This document shows positions 1 through 27,183 of a stretch of DNA of 27,183 nucleotides, piece after piece. The translations under genes were made by a program, and so were the position numbers. How positions within the stretch are numbered: the stretch's first letter is position 1; each line of letters begins with the position of its first letter. Under the pieces are notes generated by a model, which worked only from the letters and a program-made list of their open reading frames with translations, was not told the origin of the DNA and searched no databases. The DNA is from a virus, in the IMG/VR virus record IMGVR_UViG_3300017776_000142, positions 1 to 27,183 of that record; one strand, given 5' to 3'.

Positions 1-396
1 AGTCCAGTCTTGCGGAACCCCATCCACAACAGCCAATACATGACCATTTATTGATACAACCCAATTCCCACTAGGGAATTCTTTACAGAAAGAGCTGATA
101 GTCTTTGCTTTTTGATTTGGTTCTTTGTGCTTACCACTCTCTTCGATCATCCTTTGATAACCACGAAATCGTGAGCTTCCATATTCAAAAGTTCGACTGT
201 AATAAGCGAATAATTTACTGCTACTTGTTCCATCTTTATTCACTCTATCACACTCTTTTCTTATGATGTTGTGTGCTTGACGATAATCAATTTCCTGTGC
301 GTTTGCTAAAGCAAGTACCGCACAATCATTGTTCTCACGAAAGGCTCTTGAGACTCGATCATTTATCCTACTAATTTTTGTCCGTTTGTTTTCCAT
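1..396 (-). CDS. Papain/C39-like cysteine protease-fold protein (5' part; continues past left edge)
   Basis: An open frame reads leftwards off the window, giving 132 residues with no stop. The start at 396 is chosen because GGAG lies six bases upstream. An in-frame ATG at 408 (MENE) is the alternative but lacks a ribosome site. The N-terminal NDCAVLALA block looks like the catalytic cysteine motif of phage C39/papain-like proteins, which usually begin NDCxVxAL. The GNWVVSINGHVLAVVDG block near the window edge looks like the matching histidine strand, with a GHxxAVxDG pattern. Between them is a charged helical region. Family knowledge suggests a peptidase-fold protein of the phage early region; whether it cleaves anything is unknown. 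It is divergent from the late genes, so it probably belongs to a separate leftward operon. The assignment rests on motif pattern only. Confidence 0.6.
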   Translation of the reverse strand, partial: MENKRTKISRINDRVSRAFRENNDCAVLALANAQEIDYRQAHNIIRKECDRVNKDGTSSSKLFAYYSRTFEYGSSRFRGYQRMIEESGKHKEPNQKAKTISSFCKEFPSGNWVVSINGHVLAVVDGVPQDWT

Positions 397-421
397 TTCA
401 TTCTCCATTGAGTTAAAGTGT

Positions 422-965: not shown

Positions 966-991
966 TTGACATCAATCGATGGATATATATC
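966..991 (+). promoter_or_regulatory. Rightward promoter P0, overlapped by the first dyad
   Basis: TTGACA at 966-971 is followed after 14 bases by TATATC at 986-991, the same geometry as four other promoters in the window. The first TCGATA-type dyad (976-993) lies across the spacer and -10 region, and an NrdR-like box ends two bases before the -35. Such overlap is what one expects for a repressed promoter. Its transcript would run through the remaining dyads toward the small terminase gene. Confidence 0.45.
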
Positions 992-1278
992 GAATAGCCC
1001 TAAAACGCACGAGGATGCTCTGTAATGGACGAACGTTTCTCAATGACTCATGTTACCTTGGAAAATGCTCAAAGCATAGAGACAATCCTCATAGGGAATA
1101 ACACCAATCGATATAAAAATATCGAAGGCATATTTGTACCTAATCGATAAGAACATATCGAATCCCTACGCACGCACGCACGGGCAGTTATCGTACCAAG
1201 GATATCGATAAAGGCGAATCGATTGCGGTTAATCGATAAAAGTATATCGAGAAAAGAATATCGGTAAAAAGATATCGA
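976..1278. repeat. Array of six 18-bp dyads, TCGATA-N6-TATCGA
   Basis: Six sites share two 6-bp arms and an exact 6-bp spacer: 976-993, 1108-1125, 1144-1161, 1205-1222, 1233-1250 and 1261-1278. Three copies (1108, 1144, 1233) have perfect arms; the others carry one arm change each (TCGATG at 976, AATCGA at 1217, TCGGTA at 1261). The N6 cores differ, so the arms are conserved, as for a dimeric DNA-binding protein. Copies four to six are spaced 28 bases start to start, and copies two to three 36. No complete dyad was noticed elsewhere in the window. They could be operators of a phage repressor, since copy one overlaps a promoter, or iteron-like origin sites, since an AT-rich stretch follows. 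Confidence 0.75.
1025..1150 (+). CDS. Possible small ORF (41 aa) downstream of promoter P0
   Basis: ATG at 1025 follows GAGGA (1011-1015) by nine bases and gives a 41-residue frame, MDERFSMTHVTLENAQ... ending NIEGIFVPNR. It lies just downstream of promoter P0 and is interrupted by the second and third dyads, so its C-terminal residues are dictated by those sites. No domain is recognisable. It may be a leader peptide, a small regulator or chance. The ribosome site and promoter support it; the overlap with binding sites argues against it. Confidence 0.3.
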   Translation: MDERFSMTHVTLENAQSIETILIGNNTNRYKNIEGIFVPNR

Positions 1279-1296: not shown

Positions 1297-1370
1297 AAAA
1301 AAAAGTTTTGGGCGGGGCATTTTTTTTGAGGCATCATCGGAATTCAAATAAATTTTATATATATATATTA
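1297..1370. other. A8/T8 pair flanking a GC core, then a very AT-rich stretch
   Basis: A8 at 1297-1304 and T8 at 1320-1327 flank the GC-rich core GGGCGGGGC (1310-1318). From 1341 to 1370 nearly every base is A or T, including an alternating TA run. Beside a dyad array this arrangement resembles an unwinding element and bent DNA of a replication origin. It could also be an upstream element of the terminase promoter. No DnaA box was recognised. Confidence 0.35.
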
Positions 1371-1399
1371 GACCTCCATCAAACTTTTAGAAATTTCAG

Positions 1400-1427
1400 T
1401 TGACGATTACCTTAGTTAATATATTTT
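1400..1427 (+). promoter_or_regulatory. Promoter P1 upstream of small terminase
   Basis: TTGACG at 1400-1405 is followed by TATATT at 1420-1425 (14-base spacer) or TATTTT at 1422-1427 (16-base spacer). A start about seven bases downstream would fall almost on the ATG at 1435, so the message would be leaderless or nearly so. Only a weak AGAG precedes that ATG. Confidence 0.5.
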
Positions 1428-3546: not shown

Positions 3547-4251
3547 ATGGCTACTGAAGCGGAAAAATTACAAGAACGCATTCTTCTTAATGAGCAAAAC
3601 ATTCTTAAAGAAGCAATGGTTATGGGTGGCTTTAGTAAAGCTAATAAAGCTCCGCCTAAAACTCCTACTAAAATATCAGGTATGTACGCAGGTGAAACTC
3701 GAAAGCAACAGGCTTTCAAAAAAGCTCGTGCTGGTGCTTATGTAACAAAGGGTCAAAGAAAAACATCAGGTGGGGTTAGGGGTACTGGTCCTGTTCAGCT
3801 GGCAGATATAACAGCAAGGGCTGGATTAACTTCAGCAGACTTAACAACTTTAAGAAGTAGACTATCTAGAAGTGAATTTTTATCAGCAGCTAAGGCAAGA
3901 CAAAAAGGAGTTTCTGATGATGAGCTTGTTAAAAATGTAGGCAAATCATTAGCAGCGACAGCGGTTTTAAAGGGAACAGCAGGGCTTGCAGCTGCACCTT
4001 TAGGTAGTAGTATCCTAAGGGGTCTTGGTGGATTAGGTGGATATCTTGGTGCTCTTGGTCCTTTAGCATCAATAGCAGGAATTGGTTTTGGTTTGTATAG
4101 CTCATACAAAAAGAAAAAGAAAGAGAAAAAACAAAGAAAACAAAGAGAGCGAGCTGCTGACTCCTACACTAAAAAAATGACTGCTGATATCCAAGGTGGT
4201 CAAAGAGTAGGAGAAGGAGAAACATTTATAACAGGTGGGGAAACAGTATAA
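3547..4251 (+). CDS. Glycine/alanine-rich protein with lysine-rich segment, unknown function
   Basis: This 234-residue protein lies between the large terminase and portal genes. The N-terminal half (1-100) is basic and probably extended or helical. Residues about 135-187 form a hydrophobic Gly/Ala/Leu-rich stretch (GLAAAPLGSSILRGLGGLGG and following) that could insert in membrane or act as a glycine zipper. A dense lysine/arginine segment follows (KKKKKEKKQRKQRERA), and the tail is glycine-rich. That plan resembles small ejected or head-associated proteins of podoviruses, but I recognise no family. A GGAG lies 12 bases upstream, a long spacing. Its TAATG junction overlaps the portal start by one base, so the two are probably made together. 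Confidence 0.75.
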   Translation: MATEAEKLQERILLNEQNILKEAMVMGGFSKANKAPPKTPTKISGMYAGETRKQQAFKKARAGAYVTKGQRKTSGGVRGTGPVQLADITARAGLTSADLTTLRSRLSRSEFLSAAKARQKGVSDDELVKNVGKSLAATAVLKGTAGLAAAPLGSSILRGLGGLGGYLGALGPLASIAGIGFGLYSSYKKKKKEKKQRKQRERAADSYTKKMTADIQGGQRVGEGETFITGGETV

Positions 4252-5888
4252 TGGATGCTAAATCTTTAATAGCAATGTATCGAAGAGAAAAGTCTAGCAC
4301 TGAGCGGACGAACTTTGAAGAGCTTTACGAATCAGCCGCAGAGTTTTGTAATCCGTCTGCTGATAACATTAGAAAGAAAAAAACAAAAGGTCAGCGGGAT
4401 GATGAGCAACGCATAACAGATATTGGTATTAAAGCTCGTCGTATGTTTACTGCTGGCATGATGAGTCACTTATTCCCTCAAGGGCAAAACTGGTTGCGTC
4501 TTGTTACACAAGATAGAGACCTGATGAAAAGTGATAATGTTACAAGAGCATTATCAGCAGCTAATAAAAAATTTATTCGTGCTATTGAAGATTCCAACTT
4601 CTATGAAGAGATGGGTCAATGTATTGATCACTGTGGATATATAGGAACAACTTCTATTTATTGTGAGTCTACTGATAAGCGTATTCTTAATTTTAGATCT
4701 CATTATGTTAATCAATTTTACTTTTGTGAAAATTATCTCGGAGAAGTTGATACTGTTATTCGTGAGTTAAAACTAACAGCAAGACAGGCGGCACAGCAAT
4801 TTGTTGATGATTGTCCTGCATCGATTAAAGAGTTAGCTGCTGACCCAGTAACATCAACTAAGGAGTTTACATTTATTCACGTTGTAATGCCTCGTATGGG
4901 CTATACTCCTGACGCAACAGATAAAGAGGAAAAGAAAATTGCTTCCTACTATGTTAGCATAGAGTTAAAACAAATTGTTAGAGAGTCTGGTTTTGATGAA
5001 ATGCCTTACTCTGTAGGTAGATTTTATAAAACAAACTACGAAAAGTATGGTCGATCTCCTGCTATTGAAGTATTTAAAACTTTACCATTAATTAATCGAA
5101 TGGAAGTTTCTCGTATTCGTGGTGCAGAGCGTGTATCTAACCCGCCGTGGTTAGCACCTAATGATGGTAGTGTTCGTCGTATTAGTAACGATCAAGGTTC
5201 TATTATCTATTGGAATGCTGGCAACCCGTTATCAAAACCAGAACAGCTACGTCCTATGGATAATGTAATCATCAACGACCAGATGATTGAAAAGAAAGAG
5301 CAAGAGATATTAGATGCGTTCTATGTTCCGCTGTTTAATCCTTTAATGAACAAGCAAAACATGACAGCATTTGAATCTGCCGAAAGATTAAACCTTTCAT
5401 TGCAGTTCTTATCTCCTGCAGTTAATCGATTAAATAAATACTTTGTTACACCAATATTAGAAAGAGCATTTGGAATTATGCTGCGGTCTGGATTACTTCC
5501 AGAGCTAGATATACCAGAACTATCTGGAGCTACACTTGAGTTCGATTTAGTTGGTAAAGCATCTATTGCATCACGACAGATTGAGTTGTTTGGTACAATG
5601 ACAGCAATGCAGCAGATGATGCAGATTGCACAGTTCAAACCAGAAATATTAGATAATGTAAACTCTGATAAGACTTCAAGATTTATTCAAGAAGTAAACA
5701 TGGTGCCAGTTGACCTTCAGCTTTCTGAAGAAGAAGTAATGTTTATTCGTGAACAAAGAGCGGAAATGCAAGCACAACAAATGCAAGCACAGCAGATGCA
5801 AGCTCAAAGTGATGCTTATGTTAAAATGCAAAAGACTCCAGAGGAGGGCTCAGGAGCTGAAGTATTAATGGAACAAACAGGAGAGTAA
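4251..5888 (+). CDS. Portal (head-to-tail connector) protein
   Basis: At 545 residues this matches the T7 gp8-type head-tail connector family, close to the T7 length. Twelve copies would form the ring at one prohead vertex through which DNA enters and to which the tail attaches. Supporting segments are the N-terminal YRREKSSTERTNFEELYE block, the RMFTAGMMSHLFPQGQNWLRL stretch (about 64-84), and the conserved region around 283-310 (NRMEVSRIRGAERVSNPPWL). The C-terminus carries a glutamine/methionine repeat, AQQMQAQQMQAQ, typical of portal barrel ends. The start overlaps the preceding stop by one base and the stop overlaps the next start by one base. Confidence 0.92.
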   Translation: MDAKSLIAMYRREKSSTERTNFEELYESAAEFCNPSADNIRKKKTKGQRDDEQRITDIGIKARRMFTAGMMSHLFPQGQNWLRLVTQDRDLMKSDNVTRALSAANKKFIRAIEDSNFYEEMGQCIDHCGYIGTTSIYCESTDKRILNFRSHYVNQFYFCENYLGEVDTVIRELKLTARQAAQQFVDDCPASIKELAADPVTSTKEFTFIHVVMPRMGYTPDATDKEEKKIASYYVSIELKQIVRESGFDEMPYSVGRFYKTNYEKYGRSPAIEVFKTLPLINRMEVSRIRGAERVSNPPWLAPNDGSVRRISNDQGSIIYWNAGNPLSKPEQLRPMDNVIINDQMIEKKEQEILDAFYVPLFNPLMNKQNMTAFESAERLNLSLQFLSPAVNRLNKYFVTPILERAFGIMLRSGLLPELDIPELSGATLEFDLVGKASIASRQIELFGTMTAMQQMMQIAQFKPEILDNVNSDKTSRFIQEVNMVPVDLQLSEEEVMFIREQRAEMQAQQMQAQQMQAQSDAYVKMQKTPEEGSGAEVLMEQTGE

Positions 5889-8923: not shown

Positions 8924-11900
8924 ATGGCTTTAGATTTTATTAGTTCTTTTGAATCTGGCGAGATGTCCAGAAATATGGATGGAAGGTCTGACCTTGAAGT
9001 CTATAAAAAAGGTTGTCGTGATCTCGACAACTTTATTGTATTGCAACAGGGTGGTGTTGAACGTAGAGCTGGGACTGAGTTTGTAACAAACACTAAAGAC
9101 CCTTCTAAGCCAGCAAGAATAATTAGGTTTGATTTTTCAAGCACCACTCAATACATTATTGAAATAGGTTATGATAGTGTAGCTGCAGCTGGATATGCAA
9201 GGGTTCATTATGATGGGGCTACTATTCCTGTTACTGTAACAGGTACAGTTCCATATACTGAATCAGATTTAAGAGATATACAATTTACCAGAAGGTATGA
9301 TACTCTTGTTTTAACATCTCACAATCATCCTCCGCAACTTTTAAGGCGTACTACTATTACTCCATCTTTTACTGTAGAAGAAATATCCTATGCGTATCCT
9401 CCATTATTAGAAGAGAATTTAACTGCTACAACAATTAAACCATCTGCTAAAACAGGAACTATTGATATAGATGCATCAGCCGCTATATTTTATAACAACA
9501 CTATTGATGGAAGTCATATTGGTTCTACTTGGGCTATCGAGCATATTAGAGATGCTGCTGATATATCTGTTAATTTTGAAAGTGTAAACTCTAGTGCTAC
9601 AAGCACAGCTCTTGATGTTAGCTTTCTTAACTGGGAATTAGAAACTAGCTTTCCAGTCAGTAACCAACCTTGGTATGGAAGTTTAATTATTCAGCGTCGA
9701 ATAAATAGTACAGATGATAATGACTTTGTAAACTATATTGTTATAGCTGATACTAACTCTCATAGTGAAGCTAGAAACTTTACATACGCTTCATCAGAAC
9801 CTGAAGCTGCTGGGACTGAACTTAGATTGGTTTTTGTTCGTGATGGTGGAACATTAAGTGGATCATTAAAAGTAACTGATACAGTTCATAAAGGTCTTGT
9901 AAAAGTTGCTAGTGTTTTAGGCAGCGGTAAAGTAATATCAAGTGCTACTCACTCAAGTGGAACTATGACAGTAACAGCTAATAGTCATGGGTTGGCTAAT
10001 AATGATTATGTTTTACTGACTGGATTAATTTCTAGTGATAGTTCTACTCAACCTAATGCTAACTTTCAAATTAGTAATGTTGCAACTAATACTTTTGAAG
10101 TTACTCTTTCTGGTTCAAGTACAATTACATTAAATAATAACCCAATGATTGAGGCATCTTCAGCGGCTACTGCAACTGTTGTTTCTAAATTAGGCAAGAG
10201 TGGTTCTGACTCAGGTGCTGCTACAACTAGATGGTCGGAAGCAGCGTTTAGTGGATATCGTGGATACCCGCCAGCATCAGAATTTTTTGAGAACAGACTT
10301 TGGCTTACAGGTTCTATTAACGAGCCAGCAGAAATATTTGGTTCTGTGTTTGGTGAGATATATAATTTCCTAACTGGTTCACTTCCTAAGTCTGGCATTA
10401 AAAGAGTTATAGACACGCCAGAGGAACCTAGATGGTTAAAGGGAAAACAATTTTTATTTTTAGGAACAACGGATAGCTCTGTGTCAATTAAAGCTGCGGA
10501 TAGTGATTCTCTTATTACACAAAGCAATATTGTAACACGAGTAGAAAATGCTTATGGTGCTGCGGCACTACAAGCTGAGTTAGCTAACGATACAATCCTT
10601 TATGCACAGAGGGATAAATTAAAGTTGCGTGAGCTTGTGTATAGCCAGTCAGAGAATACATTCTTAGGAAACGACCTCAACTTCCTTAGTCAAGATATTA
10701 ACTCTGGCAAGATTGCAGAATTATTTGTACAAAAAGAACCTCAACAAATTGTTTGGTGTATATTAGAGGATGGCACTGCTACTACATTAAGTTATGATCG
10801 TGGCAATAATATTCGTGGCTGGGCGAGAGTAAATACGGATGGAAAGATTTATAGTGCTGATTCTATCTCTGGAGATGGAGAAGATTTAGTATGGGCTTGC
10901 GTACAAAGAGATTTTATAGGAACACCTTGGACTCCTAATACCGCTTATGTTACTGGTAACATTGTGTCTTATGAAGGTGTTTTGTATAAATCAAAAGCGG
11001 GTGCTGATAGTGGTAACACATTTAATTCTGGTGATTGGGATGTTATTAGTAAAACAAGATATTGTATTGAAAAATTTCATCCCCGCAAAGATTTAGATTG
11101 GTATGTAGATTCTGGTAAAAAATTAGATGGTGGTAATGCCCAGAATGCTGACTCACTAAACCTAGGGACAGGTTCAGATTTTGGAACATTAGAAATAGTT
11201 AAAACAGGATTAGGCGACAATATTAGTGGCAAGGTAATTAAAATATCTAACACTAATGACCCATTACTTGATGGAAAATCTTTTAAAGGAACAGGTCAAG
11301 ATCCAAATACAATTACACTTCAAGATTTAAATGGAAATAATTTTACATACAATATCAATACTTTAACAATAAGTGAAATTACTGGTGTTAATAGTAGTGC
11401 TAATGGATCATATCAATTTACAAACGAAATAAGTAATGGTAAAAAAGTATATGAAAACTCAACAAACAGTTCACTTCAAATAAGATTTACTGGGTCTGTG
11501 TGGGATCTTAGAGCTTTTTTCTTTGGTGGAAGCACTTTGATTAGTTCTTCTTCTGATTTAAATGATATACACGCACCCACTACAGGTTGGAGCAATAGTT
11601 TAATACTTAATTATAATTTTGTTGCTCCATCTATTTTAACATTTGAGTTCATTTATAATGAGGTAACAGGGCTTGGTCATATTCAAGGTAAAACTGTTCA
11701 GGTTTTGGGTGATGACTCATTTATAGGAAATAAGACTGTTGATATTAATGGTAAAATTACATTGGATAATTATTACAATAAAATATTAACAGGATTAAAT
11801 TATACATCTTTAGTGTCTCCTATGCCTATAGAGCCATCTTTAGTTGGTAGAATATCTCAAGGTCGTGTTAAAGCTATTTCTAAAATATTTGTTAAATTAT

Positions 11901-27057: not shown

Positions 27058-27136
27058 GGCATTAAGATCGTTCAAGCTCTTGCTCGGAAGTAGTACATAG
27101 TGTACGAAGGAACGCACTAACATTGGAGGTATTACA

Positions 27137-27183
27137 ATGGAAGTGACTCTCAACTATCGAGGCTCGACTTACGTTAAAGTAAT
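27137..27183 (+). CDS. Start of a further gene (cut by right edge)
   Basis: ATG at 27137 has GGAGG seven bases upstream and its own promoter and leader. Only 15 complete codons are in the window, MEVTLNYRGSTYVKV. The YRGxxY pattern recalls the start of DUF4278-type small proteins, but that is far too little to name a family. Confidence 0.6.
   Translation, partial: MEVTLNYRGSTYVKV

Follow-up and report, generated by a model that had tools for sequence, protein, structure and literature searches.

Which protein reads the cluster of TCGATA-N6-TATCGA dyads that lies between the early and the late genes of an uncultured marine phage, and what might it do there? The sites are contained in a part of this phage's genome that was analysed as one stretch of 27,183 nucleotides (hereafter the window), within a non-coding gap of 1 kb at 409–1434. 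We tentatively favour, at somewhat less than an even chance, a fast-evolving operator array in the early/late control region, which would serve a dimeric regulator that is most likely encoded by the host.

Genomic setting of the array

The right end of the window overlaps the left end of contig G003, from which locus L007 is taken, over 98 of 98 bases, and the other end of G003 matches the window over 16,499 of 16,505 bases, so that the joined map closes into a circle of 35,248 bp. The early genes run leftward from the gap and comprise the PHROG 3754 gene, a replication initiator, a DnaB helicase, an HNH protein, a phosphoesterase and small proteins, while the late genes run rightward, starting with terS and terL. 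We assign TerS by position and conservation; its sequence has no family match in Pfam or PHROGs. A sigma-70 promoter scan of 1–2000 gave six matches compared with 5.9 in shuffles and thus no excess. The features of the region are as follows:

1–408, minus strand: PHROG 3754 gene (function unknown), transcribed leftward next to the gap and truncated at the window edge
920–963, unstranded: two CCACAANATATGG boxes (CCACAAnATATGG), 31 bp apart, left of the dyad at 976
976–993, unstranded: isolated dyad, TCGATG-N6-TATCGA, one mismatch; ortholog in L008 (contig G004, 9737)
1108–1125, unstranded: isolated dyad, exact, CGATATAAAAATATC; core kept at G004 9868, G008 11183 and G019 12937
1144–1161, unstranded: isolated dyad, exact; ortholog at G004 9904
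1167–1182, unstranded: TACGCACGCACGCACG box; by eye, similar boxes lie between dyads and G-runs in many relatives
1205–1292, unstranded: tandem block of six overlapping dyads in a 14-bp register (dyad starts 1205, 1219, 1233, 1247, 1261 and 1275); counterpart in L008 at about 4152–4270
1310–1404, plus strand: G-run, CATCGG, TAGACC..CAAACTTTT element, directly 3' of the array and outside it, conserved in the phage group
1435–1773, plus strand: small-terminase-like gene (terS), first late gene, 112 aa
2051–3463, plus strand: large terminase gene (terL)

Nine dyads and a 14-bp register

We found nine dyads at 976–1292, three of them exact (1108–1125, 1144–1161 and 1233–1250), four with one mismatch (starting at 976, 1205, 1261 and 1275) and two with two mismatches (starting at 1219 and 1247). 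The preliminary description of this DNA had reported six copies with the same arms, ending at 1278; the dyads are indeed real and non-random, but only three are exact, the total is nine and the array extends to 1292. TCGA-like tetramers recur every 14 bp from 1205 onward (1205, 1219, 1233, 1247, 1261 as TCGG, 1275, and 1289 as GCGA), and the 18-bp dyads of the block consequently overlap by 4 bp, with neighbours sharing a TCGA.

In comparison to 2000 dinucleotide shuffles of 409–1434, the gap is strongly enriched in both patterns: it holds seven dyads with at most one mismatch (shuffle mean 0.009, maximum 1) and six TCGA-N10-TCGA pairs, which reflect the 14-bp step (shuffle mean 0.035, maximum 2). 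Neither pattern occurs in the rest of the window. The earlier statement that no complete copy exists elsewhere therefore stands for sites with up to one mismatch, but two-mismatch matches are present outside the gap at 4266 and 5051, both in coding sequence. With up to three mismatches, the whole window contains 23 matches compared with a shuffle mean of 10.8, a count that was reached by none of 100 shuffles. A scan at 13 bits or more with a weight matrix, which was derived from the nine sites themselves, returned nine sites in the window and nine in G003, which belongs to the same phage, all of them in the gap.

Conservation, gain and loss among relatives

A search with terL yielded 68 viral loci, 58 of which were examined; 19 with fewer than 1100 bases upstream of terL were left out, and 39 were counted. 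The 14-bp array is present in nine of these 39 loci (L005–L007, L008, L011, L072, L024, L026 and L027), where L005–L007 belong to the phage of the window, the array of L011 is partly TTGA, and L024, L026 and L027 have one dyad each by the stricter regular expression and three each with at most one mismatch. The other 30 loci lack the array, and their upstream sequence contains no site with up to one mismatch, except for one in L021. The array is thus not essential to the group. Conservation in close relatives, which had been set beforehand as a test that could refute a functional array, gave a divided answer: the sites are kept in L008, but most of the counted loci are without them.

Locus L008 (terL 88%) retains the isolated sites, a longer tandem block, the same order and the same flanking boxes. 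Across the three isolated orthologous sites shared with the window, the arms are identical at 32 of 36 positions and the cores at 12 of 18, with six of the twelve core matches coming from site 1108 alone. Variable cores between conserved arms, as previously proposed, are therefore the general pattern, but site 1108 departs from it, with a core that L008, G008 and G019 retain. Together with the exact spacing and the position in a control region, the better conservation of the arms supports the earlier proposal of an array for a dimeric DNA-binding protein. At least one site with up to one mismatch was found in 12 of 25 whole records, and two 17-bit sites, 29 bp apart, are present in L169, a more distant record.

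Gain and loss were observed even among closely similar phages. L024, which carries the array, and L034, which does not, are identical at 456 of 469 positions in TerL (97%) and at 102 of 115 in TerS (89%); L072, with an array of three units, and L036, with none, share 88 of 106 TerS residues (83%). Gene content was compared by leftward ORFs of at least 40 aa in 20 contigs (4 carriers and 16 others), a small sample that includes several short contigs, and the sole carrier-specific ORF found in at least three carriers was an other-frame ORF within dnaB. Of the real genes, it is the PHROG 3754 gene whose distribution most resembles that of the array, with three of the four carriers and one of the 16 other contigs having it; its protein has no DNA-binding match, and a scan with this protein gave matches only in the same phage.

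A putative operator array for a host regulator

Each 18-bp dyad would, in the mechanism that we propose, be the site for one dimer of a sequence-specific DNA-binding protein. In the block at 1205–1292, dimers could stack in the 14-bp register on shared TCGA half-sites, which would result in cooperative, dose-sensitive binding. As the array sits between the leftward early genes and the rightward late genes, its occupancy would tune one or both promoters of the gap. Dimer binding, cooperativity, the transcriptional effect and the host origin of the binder are what we infer from the arrangement of the sites and their distribution.

Operators of CI/Cro-type phage repressors are clustered dyads between divergent gene sets, and the dyads described here are likewise clustered between divergent gene sets. 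Unlike in those systems, the early proteins scanned, a subset of the ORFs, showed no recognisable repressor-like domain, and they lend no support to the phage repressor operators that had been suggested at first. Conserved phage proteins such as TerS or the initiator probably do not read the sites. More likely binders are a host protein or a small phage protein that escaped recognition, because both of these phage candidates fail to covary with the array (see below) and no repressor was found among the proteins scanned.

Two further candidates came from viruses outside the group. GP88 (PF17338) genes occur in nine of the 23 viral contigs from outside the group that bear an array (G026–G048), two of the nine being near-identical, and GP88 was rejected as the binder since it occurs in none of 17 records of this group. 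In L077, L094 and L144, all outside the group, a TCGATA array precedes a gene for a T7-like RNA polymerase; one of these proteins was assigned by Pfam and the others were grouped with it by BLAST. This link was dropped, as no single family is common to the viral arrays. The arrays of L080 and L081 lie inside ORFs and may be due to chance.

If the dyads are operators for a host regulator, they would visibly connect the early/late switch of these uncultured marine phages to the physiology of their host, and their rapid gain and loss would constitute a natural experiment.

The replication initiator and possible origin iterons

Two other functions, iterons of a replication origin and packaging sites, are possible but less likely than an operator array. 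The former we regard as unlikely. The 211-aa winged-helix initiator, which is encoded directly before the DnaB-type helicase, would in that case bind the dyads and load the helicase, as lambda O loads helicase at ori-lambda. The protein families fit this role, as the initiator matches PHROG 11233 (replication initiation, 8.6e-24), 6493 (DnaD-like helicase loader) and 678 (O-like), and dnaB follows directly after its gene. Moreover, an AT-rich stretch (1310–1434, 28.8% GC) adjoins the array. A model of low confidence (mean pLDDT 57, above 70 at residues 10–80) shows a winged-helix-like N-terminal domain of the initiator and gave weak fold matches to 4pql (N-terminal domain of a DNA binding protein) and 5kbj (a Rep-DNA complex) with E-values of 5.5e-3 and 1.0e-2; none of its fold matches, which include PadR and Rep initiator domains, has an E-value of 0.001 or below. 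An exact dyad inside dnaB of G010 and a one-mismatch dyad inside dnaB of G004, apparently at the same coding position, could be read as stray iterons, but they fall in conserved coding sequence.

The distribution of the array argues against the initiator as its reader. The recognition helix YWSTHKLHRLL is common to G003 and G004, which carry the array, and to G008, which has one gap dyad, and the helix of G010 (YWSTHKLHRML) is one residue off, yet there are no gap sites in G010. Conversely, G006 carries the array and has a different recognition helix, and G011 carries the array and gives no initiator match by tblastn, with a different 179-aa ORF preceding dnaB. The array thus does not follow the initiator. 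Initiator genes hold only two-copy short repeats and no TCGATA array. As array and recognition helix do not co-occur, we consider the initiator less likely as the binder, and the earlier proposal of origin iterons loses ground despite the initiator-DnaB pair. In the initiators of the group, one C-terminal domain is combined with N-terminal DNA-binding domains of two or more types; in seven relatives, two of them near-identical, the N-terminal domain is differently built, as judged by eye from the alignment.

The lambda origin consists of four 18-bp iterons and a 38-bp AT-rich stretch (PMC3349717). Common to both systems are several 18-bp repeats suited to a dimeric initiator and an initiator-helicase gene pair in the phage genome. 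In contrast to the lambda iterons, the dyads studied here overlap with a step of 14 bp, the initiator gene is about 4 kb away from them, and among relatives their presence does not track the initiator.

TerS and a candidate packaging site

A packaging array, cosB or pac-like, in which the dyads would be TerS sites beside a conserved cleavage element, seems less probable still. The array lies directly 5' of the element at 1310–1404, in which G-runs, CATCGG, TAGACC and a CCAACTTTTnAAAATTTGAC-like stretch follow each other in an order that is conserved in much of the group, although our search expressions for it matched some loci and not all. The element is located 3' of terS in seven relatives (L040, L041, L044, L045, L046, L047 and L050), as would be expected of a free-standing module; because it is found on either side of terS, it behaves as a free module and is perhaps a packaging site. 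We consider it a candidate cos or pac site. The occupation of the array position by different repeats in some relatives, for example L045, would also be compatible with packaging sites.

TerS itself fits less well. The presence of the array differs between L024 and L034 and between L072 and L036 despite TerS identities of 89% and 83%, which makes TerS less likely as the binder, and the TerS model consists of helices only (pTM 0.37), with no fold match at an E-value below 8. Lambda cosB and small-terminase sites (PMC7617512) likewise lie beside terminase genes and a conserved element, but the presence of the array described here does not follow TerS. Contig starts cluster at the G-runs, where G019 carries a scaffold gap of 10 N inside a G-run; since the gap falls there, the clustered contig ends may be an assembly effect, and they were dropped as proof of a genome terminus. 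G019, a contig of 62,102 bp, contains two terminase genes of this group in addition to the N-gap and is probably a joined assembly of two phages.

The same dyad in bacteria and a possible link to Rex

In 84,980 prokaryote genomes, a search pattern of 2.5 perfect TATCGATA-N6 units, which has the 14-bp register built in, matched at 46 loci (L097–L142). A rex gene starts between -60 and 200 bp from the array in 24 of them, Fe-ADH in five, adhE in two and a nuoE-like gene in one, so that at least one of these genes lies at this distance in 32 of the 46 loci found with this one pattern. None of six query proteins, which were taken from the 46 loci themselves, was found anywhere in the locus in ten cases, and a LysR-type gene is present in 14. 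The four rex genes that were checked match NCBIfam NF003994 best. Canonical-like Rex operators (TTGTGA/TTGTTA arms, up to two mismatches) occur within 400 bp of the 24 rex arrays in four loci, with five matches. Judging by record titles, there is no obvious marine planktonic host among the 46 loci. Such tandem arrays immediately precede rex, alcohol dehydrogenase and NuoE/F-like operons in many bacteria, most of which are anaerobic.

These bacterial arrays, which are a subject separate from the phage, look like an unusual operator class of the Rex regulon. A putative TCGATA-specific Rex class may be characteristic of rex and alcohol-dehydrogenase operons in Clostridia, Spirochaetes, Planctomycetes and Ignavibacteria, although the bacterial dyads might be read by Rex, by the LysR-type protein or by another protein. 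The occurrence of the same dyad upstream of rex and other redox genes indicates that it has an operator-like role outside the phage. Among the papers listed in a limited search of open-licence literature, none reports TATCGATA as a Rex operator, iteron or phage site; two Rex papers contain TCGATA in primer tables only.

The host regulator of the phage array might thus be pictured as a TCGATA-specific, NADH-sensing repressor of the Rex type, whose operators would wire the early/late region to host redox state or titrate the repressor, but we give this specific version only a slim chance. Related phages would then gain and lose such redox wiring quickly, perhaps with a change of host. The Rex operator of these redox-sensing repressors is given as TTGTGAAW4TTCACAA in PMC2883068. 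The phage dyad resembles it in its length of 18 bp, its 6-bp arms and its 6-bp spacer, and phage arms and 14-bp register recur upstream of bacterial rex and alcohol dehydrogenase genes. It differs in that its arms are TCGATA rather than TTGTGA and in that its neighbours are terS and the PHROG 3754 gene, with no rex or redox gene seen beside the array.

Binder-free explanations

An AT-rich palindrome might also have expanded in tandem at a fragile, hypervariable spot as a neutral or selfish repeat, which would need no binder at all. Such an origin, to which we likewise give a slim chance, would explain that close relatives differ in the presence of the array and that other repeats are found at the same place elsewhere. 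Among relatives without the TCGATA block, such repeats occur in L045 (12-base lag by autocorrelation, z 5.8), in L025 (by eye) and, more weakly, in L021. However, three of the dyads are isolated in unlike DNA, their order is kept in L008 and their arms are better preserved than their cores. That the dyads act as RNA hairpins in a leader transcript is very improbable: any of them could fold as a hairpin, and 1100–1165 has a more stable fold than shuffled sequences (z -3.7, 1 of 200), but folding of the tandem block is unremarkable (z -1.8 and -1.4 for the two strands, -1.1 for the L008 block), arm mismatches are uncompensated, and the gap has no Rfam match at the gathering threshold, with two sub-threshold ones at E-values of 0.62 and 3.3.

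Further elements of the gap and the window

The operator reading is accompanied by other potential regulatory elements in the same region. First, the gaps of G006, G008, G010 and G019 contain several clustered copies of another dyad, TAAGTnGTTGATnATCAACnACTTA, which is absent as a cluster from the gaps of G003, which is this phage, and G004 (L008); isolated weak half-site pairs occur elsewhere in several genomes. Second, the box pair at 920–963 resembles an NrdR box pair. The sequence ACCACAATATATGGT recurs in G004 and G022 (9298–9341 in the latter), and a related pair is found in the loci of G053 and G054. The presence of the TAAGTnGTTGATnATCAACnACTTA class in this gap in relatives, and of the NrdR-like pair beside dyad 976, fits the expectation of a regulatory region. 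NrdR-like boxes about 31–32 bp apart are also seen in distant relatives, beside a AAAACGCA..GGA stretch that appears conserved by eye.

The non-coding stretch at 409–900 is GC-rich (49%) and partly alignable with L006, L008 and L025; it is possibly a leader RNA of the early operon. At the right end of the window (27067–27183), we found a glutamine riboswitch (RF01739, 48.5 bits). Glutamine riboswitches are described in PMC9004378 from an OM43 phage, from contigs of phages thought to infect SAR11 and also from cyanobacteria, and with reports from all of these the element does not settle the host. The riboswitch is followed by an ORF of 20 residues from 27137 (MEVTLNYRGSTYVKVIKLDK), which crosses the window edge into G003.
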